Assembly (NCBI GenBank): GCA_902768715.1
Contig: CACXMH010000006.1
Location: forward strand, 62,001-126,000
Source of the DNA: Fibrobacter succinogenes
GTDB taxonomy: Bacteria > Fibrobacterota > Fibrobacteria > Fibrobacterales > Fibrobacteraceae
DNA: 64,000 nucleotides
Reading direction: 5' to 3'
Shown piece after piece: positions 21,129-22,343 of this stretch. The notes beneath the pieces are model-generated. The model was not told the DNA's origin and searched no databases. It saw only the letters and a list, made by a program, of their open reading frames with translations. Every line of letters starts with the position of its first letter. Positions within the stretch are counted from its first letter, which is position 1. Made by a program: the position numbers and the translations under genes.

Positions 21129-22157
21129 ATGCGATTTGCGGAACCGAGCTTTTTGTGGGGACTTTTCACCCTGCCTTTTTTTGCCCTTTTGTTCTATTAT
21201 GCCTTTTATCGCCGTAAAAAACTGGCGGAGCGTTTCGTGTCCCTTTCCATGCTGCCCAAGCTTTCGACCAGCGTGTCTCCCTGGCGGAGGCTCGCCAAGG
21301 TTCTGATCCTCCTTTTGGCAATCGCTTTTTTGTTCGTTGCTCTTGCAAGGCCCCAGTGGGGCCACAAGTTGGAACATGTTGAACGTCGTGGCTTGGATCT
21401 GGTTCTTCTGCAGGACATTTCCCTTTCCATGCTGGCCGAAGACATCAAGCCCAACCGTCTGGTGCGTAGCCGTCACGAAATTGCCTCGTTCCTGGAATCT
21501 CTCACCGGCGACCGCGTGGGTCTGGTGGCCTTTAGCGGCGAGGCCCAGGTGATGGTGCCTCTGACACTGGACTACGGAACCGTGCAGATGATGCTCCGGG
21601 AACTGGAGCCGGGCTGGCTCATGCCGGGAACAAACCTGGAAAAGGCCATCCGCAAGGGGATGGATTTGTTCCGCAACTCCGGCGGGGCGGGCAAGTATTC
21701 GGTAATGGTCCTCATGAGTGACGGCGAAGAGCTTGAAGACGCCGCCGTCAATGCCGCCAAGGAAGCCGCCGAGATGGGCATCCGCATCTATACGGTGGGT
21801 ATCGGCTCCCGCGAAGGCGTGCCAATCCCCGTCAAGACCAAGAACGGAGAAGTGGCCTACAAAAAAGACATGCAAGGAAACATCGTGACCACCCGCCTAG
21901 AAGACGGGACTCTTCAAGAAATTGCAAGCGCTACCGGCGGGTTGTACTTTTACGCGAGCCCCGGTGAGTTCCAGCTGCAGAAGGTGCTGACCGAAATTGC
22001 CACCCTCGAAAAGAAGGACCAGGCAAGCGACCGCTTTGAGAATTACCAGGACCGCTACCAGATTTTCCTCGGGATTGCGGCTCTGCTGTTTCTGATTGAA
22101 GCGGTAGTGTCCGAACGGGGCCGCCGCCGCAAGCAACTGGCCGGTCGTTTCAGCTGA
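21129..22157 (+). CDS. BatA-like membrane protein with von Willebrand factor A domain
   Basis: 342 residues: membrane helices at about 8-26 and 57-74 (ending ALARPQWG), VWA domain (about 88-290) with MIDAS sequence DISLS (Asp about 96), TNLEKAI and MSDGEE, and a C-terminal helix (about 310-328). TGGAG precedes the ATG. The layout matches BatA/BatB proteins that sit in the inner membrane with the VWA domain in the periplasm. It is a paralogue of the 18713 gene, clearly diverged. No MoxR gene is nearby. Confidence 0.85.
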   Translation: MRFAEPSFLWGLFTLPFFALLFYYAFYRRKKLAERFVSLSMLPKLSTSVSPWRRLAKVLILLLAIAFLFVALARPQWGHKLEHVERRGLDLVLLQDISLSMLAEDIKPNRLVRSRHEIASFLESLTGDRVGLVAFSGEAQVMVPLTLDYGTVQMMLRELEPGWLMPGTNLEKAIRKGMDLFRNSGGAGKYSVMVLMSDGEELEDAAVNAAKEAAEMGIRIYTVGIGSREGVPIPVKTKNGEVAYKKDMQGNIVTTRLEDGTLQEIASATGGLYFYASPGEFQLQKVLTEIATLEKKDQASDRFENYQDRYQIFLGIAALLFLIEAVVSERGRRRKQLAGRFS

Positions 22158-22174
22158 GTCATCGCTCCGGGTAC

Positions 22175-22262
22175 AAAAAAAAGCCTTTCGGGTGGGTATG
22201 TCTCTCTTGGAGACGGGCGGCGCTCCATGGGAGGCCGAATTAGAATCCACCGGAAAGGCTAT
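22175..22262 (-). ncRNA. candidate structured small RNA (three-way junction with U-tail)
   Basis: Outer stem 22182-22195 with 22247-22260 pairs at 13 of 14 positions. It encloses a perfect 5-bp hairpin (22200-22214, GTCTC/GAGAC) and a 7-bp hairpin with one bulge (22219-22236, GGC-CTCC/GGAG-GCC). On the minus strand the outer stem is followed by eight U. Upstream on that strand are TTATCA and TATTAT separated by 16 bases, usable as -35 and -10. No protein frame explains it. It fits none of the riboswitches or RNAs I know; the class is undetermined. Confidence 0.5.
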
Positions 22263-22343
22263 GAGTATAATATACATTCAAAAAAGTCTGATAAACCAAA
22301 TTATTTTGAAATTCCTTAGTCCAATTTGGAATGAGGGAATAGC

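Follow-up and report, generated by a model that had tools for sequence, protein, structure and literature searches.

The spacer between a BatA-like gene and an M16-like gene in Fibrobacter succinogenes raises the question of whether its inverted repeats belong to a small RNA gene in their own right or to the expression of a neighbouring gene. The locus lies in a 64,000-nucleotide stretch of one contig (the window), for which a sequence-only reading had proposed a candidate new small RNA built around a three-way junction. That proposal gains support from comparison with Rfam, from homologues and from compensatory base pairs, with the transcript itself being predicted. Judged from sequence, it is very probable that this DNA contains a genuine small RNA gene, whose product folds and which has a promoter and a stop signal of its own.

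Predicted structure of the element

The two flanking genes encode a BatA-domain/VWA protein on one side and a protein of the M16 peptidase family on the other. Read on the minus strand from 22262 to 22175, the sequence between them is predicted to fold into a three-way junction, in which an outer stem (P1) encloses two hairpins (P2 and P3) and is followed by eight U. The features of the locus, in window coordinates, are:

22175–22262, minus strand: small RNA gene of ~88 nt, predicted 5' end near 22262 (fold and match to covariance model R1)
22247–22260, minus strand: P1, 5' strand, with a C·C mismatch at 22252 (fold and compensatory changes)
22182–22195, minus strand: P1, 3' strand (fold and compensatory changes)
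22218–22237, minus strand: P2 hairpin, variable in sequence and length among clades (folds of 31 relatives, parsed by clade)
22200–22214, minus strand: P3 hairpin GUCUC-CAAGA-GAGAC, with GACUC/GAGUC or AUCUC/GAGAU in other clades
22175–22182, minus strand: run of eight U, which together with P1 resembles an intrinsic terminator (sequence and fold)
22269–22274, minus strand: predicted -10 box TATATT, 12 nt upstream of the first RNA position in almost every relative
22320–22330, no strand assigned: operator-like palindrome TCCAANTTGGA, centred ~62 nt upstream of the RNA (fixed offset and enrichment)

The outer stem of 14 positions (13 paired, with the single C·C mismatch) around two hairpins and the eight terminal U had been read from the sequence alone, and both were recovered in the minus-strand fold. 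The fold energy of -37.8 kcal/mol compares with a mean of -19.7 for shuffled sequences (z = -6.27; 0 of 200 shuffles equally stable), in agreement with the claim that the three-way junction represents structure well beyond a terminator hairpin. The view that no coding frame accounts for the element also stood, as the 126-aa open reading frame at 21897–22277 on the minus strand is not conserved; the RNA of the relatives ranges from 86 to 110 nt with frame-breaking indels. The same length changes interrupt the short open frame from GTG that spans several members and would be the basis for an mRNA encoding a very small protein. No peptide is conserved across clades, and this possibility is considered the most remote of the alternatives.

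Distribution and covariation within Fibrobacter

A DNA search detected clear relatives in ~30 of 80 Fibrobacter genomes. Covariance model R1, built from 25 of the relatives, extended this set and matched the element itself with 105.8 bits (contig positions 84176–84262, minus strand, equivalent to 22176–22262 of the window), and model R2, built from 38 sequences, located a single copy in 64 of the 80 genomes. The search for homologues by covariance models that had been suggested for this locus therefore finds the RNA across the genus. Both models also weakly match the opposite strand due to the near symmetry of P1, at scores far below those of the minus-strand reading. No convincing match to the models occurred in 88 other Fibrobacterota genomes. 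The best match outside of the genus spans 36 nt; it has the form of a terminator-like hairpin preceded by tRNA-like sequence and was rejected as a homologue. A 24-base pattern scan returned only Fibrobacter records among the genome contigs and none among viral contigs. Seven of the 16 Fibrobacter genomes that lack a model match are rated 99% complete, which shows the RNA to be dispensable in the genus, and two of the 16 keep the BatA/VWA–M16 junction but have a short spacer there that lacks the RNA.

The P1-closed fold with internal hairpins was predicted for all 31 relatives that were folded; in the most divergent clade, some members have a weak or rearranged P2. Among 38 distinct sequences, 92.4% of the P1 and P3 cells are paired, compared to 41–58% when the partners are slid, and six P1/P3 pairs have changed on both sides. 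The covariation score was reached by 0 of 500 shuffles, a control that ignores shared ancestry, and the many invariant pairs in P1 and P3 speak neither for nor against pairing. The sequence and length of P2 differ by clade, though it remains a hairpin in most; because its alignment by MAFFT is faulty in the most divergent clades, P2 was excluded when covariation was counted. Compensatory changes, which the sequence-only reading had named as a check across the Fibrobacterota, are thus present in P1 and P3 within the genus. Mean majority conservation is 0.88 for P1 and 0.94 for P3, compared to 0.56 for the first nine positions of the linker after P1. From these alignments, the element has the conserved structure and compensatory changes expected of an independent bacterial small RNA gene.

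Promoter, palindrome and genomic context

Upstream of the RNA, where promoter-like hexamers had been reported earlier, TATATT occupies 22274–22269; a generic promoter scan gave a 9-of-12 match there (TTATCA-16-TATTAT). Across 50 aligned loci, this -10 box is positioned at -12, with shifts of one or two nucleotides in a few cases. Apart from two single loci and one divergent clade, these loci also have the palindrome TCCAANTTGGA, with its start at -67 to -69. The same 50 loci contain no conserved -35 element. A promoter of its own at a fixed distance, as expected of an independent bacterial small RNA gene, accompanies the element. The conserved order consists of TCCAANTTGGA, the -10 box, an RNA of ~88 nt (~145 nt in some clades) and, at the downstream end, either a run of U or a further terminator hairpin.

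The palindrome is not restricted to this locus. There are 19 TCCAANTTGGA sites in the genome of the window, compared to one for a reversed-pattern control, and the 13-base form of the palindrome is enriched in each Fibrobacter genome searched (2–26 sites per genome versus 0–2 for the control). This suggests a genus-wide operator-like motif of a global regulator not yet named. The palindrome is found upstream of several genes for carbohydrate degradation, sugar uptake and c-di-GMP; genes adjoining other sites encode a GH5 cellulase, GH9 and GH10 enzymes, a sugar transporter, a GGDEF/EAL protein and a superoxide dismutase, a set drawn from ten sites chosen by eye that constitutes a lead on a regulon and not a test of one.

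In most genomes the RNA is located between the BatA/VWA and M16 genes, convergent with the 21129 gene and divergent from the M16 gene. This arrangement would suit a cis-antisense regulator of the adjacent BatA/VWA or M16 gene, and the sequence-only reading had the RNA running antisense toward the 3' end of the 21129 gene. That part of the reading failed, as the RNA ends at 22175, 18 nt beyond the stop codon of its neighbour (22157), with no overlap. Further, the RNA and its promoter are conserved beside bioB in one clade (the neighbouring product, recognized by eye, reads as biotin synthase), while the BatA/VWA gene of the members checked has a different downstream neighbour. The linkage to these neighbours is lost in this clade, leaving an antisense role unsupported; the same promoter at the bioB location identifies the RNA as an independent unit, and cis-antisense regulation is judged very improbable.

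Only slightly less improbable is that the element is an oversized but otherwise ordinary intrinsic terminator that serves a neighbouring gene and has no separate function. With eight U behind it, P1 would indeed make a good minus-strand terminator, but no minus-strand gene is seen ending at the element, conservation extends to the -10 box, the palindrome and both internal hairpins (P2 and P3), and the element recurs beside bioB. Several clades lack a long U-run directly after P1 and keep the fold; where their downstream sequence was folded, a linker precedes a separate terminator hairpin. The persistence of the fold under these conditions suggests that termination is not the only role for which P1 is retained. 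Transcription-attenuation leaders are also laid out as a structured domain that ends in a terminator, and a riboswitch or attenuator controlling a downstream gene was considered on this basis. The downstream gene in the main neighbourhood is on the opposite strand, and in the second neighbourhood the downstream reading frames differ among genomes of the same clade, making such a leader even less credible than antisense control.

Relation to known RNAs and possible function

No Rfam 15 family reached its gathering score in the window, bearing out the predicted novelty. Near-matches on the element and its relatives were below threshold, weak and unrelated, and are ascribed to chance. No literature on Fibrobacter small RNAs was found. 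Like 6S RNA, the element is small, structured and widespread in its genus, but it is approximately half the length and forms a three-way junction, while 6S RNA is a long rod with a central bubble; 6S RNA was rejected as an identity. It should be noted that the genome of the window (95% complete assembly) has no covariance match to the Rfam 6S family (RF00013) at E ≤ 10, where the control matched 8 of 14 genomes. An Hfq-dependent small RNA was likewise rejected, with no PF17209 match in the same genome and control matches in 5 of 14. The closest counterparts are intergenic trans-acting small RNAs with intrinsic terminators, which share an own promoter, a short structured transcript (here predicted), a U-run end, an intergenic location and a single copy. 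The element differs from these in an outer stem that joins both RNA ends and encloses a three-way junction, in the lack of a matching Rfam 15 member family and in the lack of an Hfq match in its genome.

C-rich-loop small RNAs pair with ribosome-binding sites in Hfq-independent systems, and several clades of the element resemble them in that CCUCC is left unpaired, either in the P2 loop or in the linker. As several other clades lack the segment, it is no defining feature of the family, and pairing with ribosome-binding sites is unsupported for the family as a whole. A divergent clade has an invariant P2 loop, ACCUCC, on a stem that shifts from GCC/GGC to GUC/GAC, and its downstream linker has CCCUCC.

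The likely explanation is a stand-alone small RNA gene, composed of palindrome and -10 box, three-way-junction RNA and U-run or second terminator, with putative control by an activator and putative action in trans; the best reading is a new activator-controlled, trans-acting small-RNA family. An activator would bind TCCAANTTGGA and switch on transcription, as suggested by the lack of a conserved -35 and by a palindrome centre where class I activators bind. P1 would join and protect both ends of the RNA and, with the U-run, end transcription. Least certain is the action in trans, for which the junction, P3 and upper P1 would most likely serve as a protein-binding scaffold. The variable linker after P1 and the conserved helices speak more for such a role, structural or protein-binding, than for a single conserved antisense seed, although the unpaired CCUCC of some clades runs counter to this preference, and in these clades the exposed segments may also pair with ribosome-binding sites. 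A more specific version, in which the RNA is a protein-binding regulator within an operator-defined regulon of polysaccharide-degrading enzymes, sugar uptake and c-di-GMP genes, is rather unlikely; if true, the control of fibre degradation in Fibrobacter would have a small-RNA arm in this RNA.

Annotated small RNAs are scarce outside of the Proteobacteria and Gram-positives, and one review counts 16 in the Fibrobacteres-Chlorobi-Bacteroidetes group versus 345 in the Proteobacteria (PMC9029176). The RNA described here appears to occur once in most Fibrobacter species and to match no catalogued RNA family. A single-copy RNA retained throughout most of a genus that degrades fibre in the rumen, together with its predicted promoter and operator-like site, offers a concrete entry to RNA- and activator-based control in these organisms.
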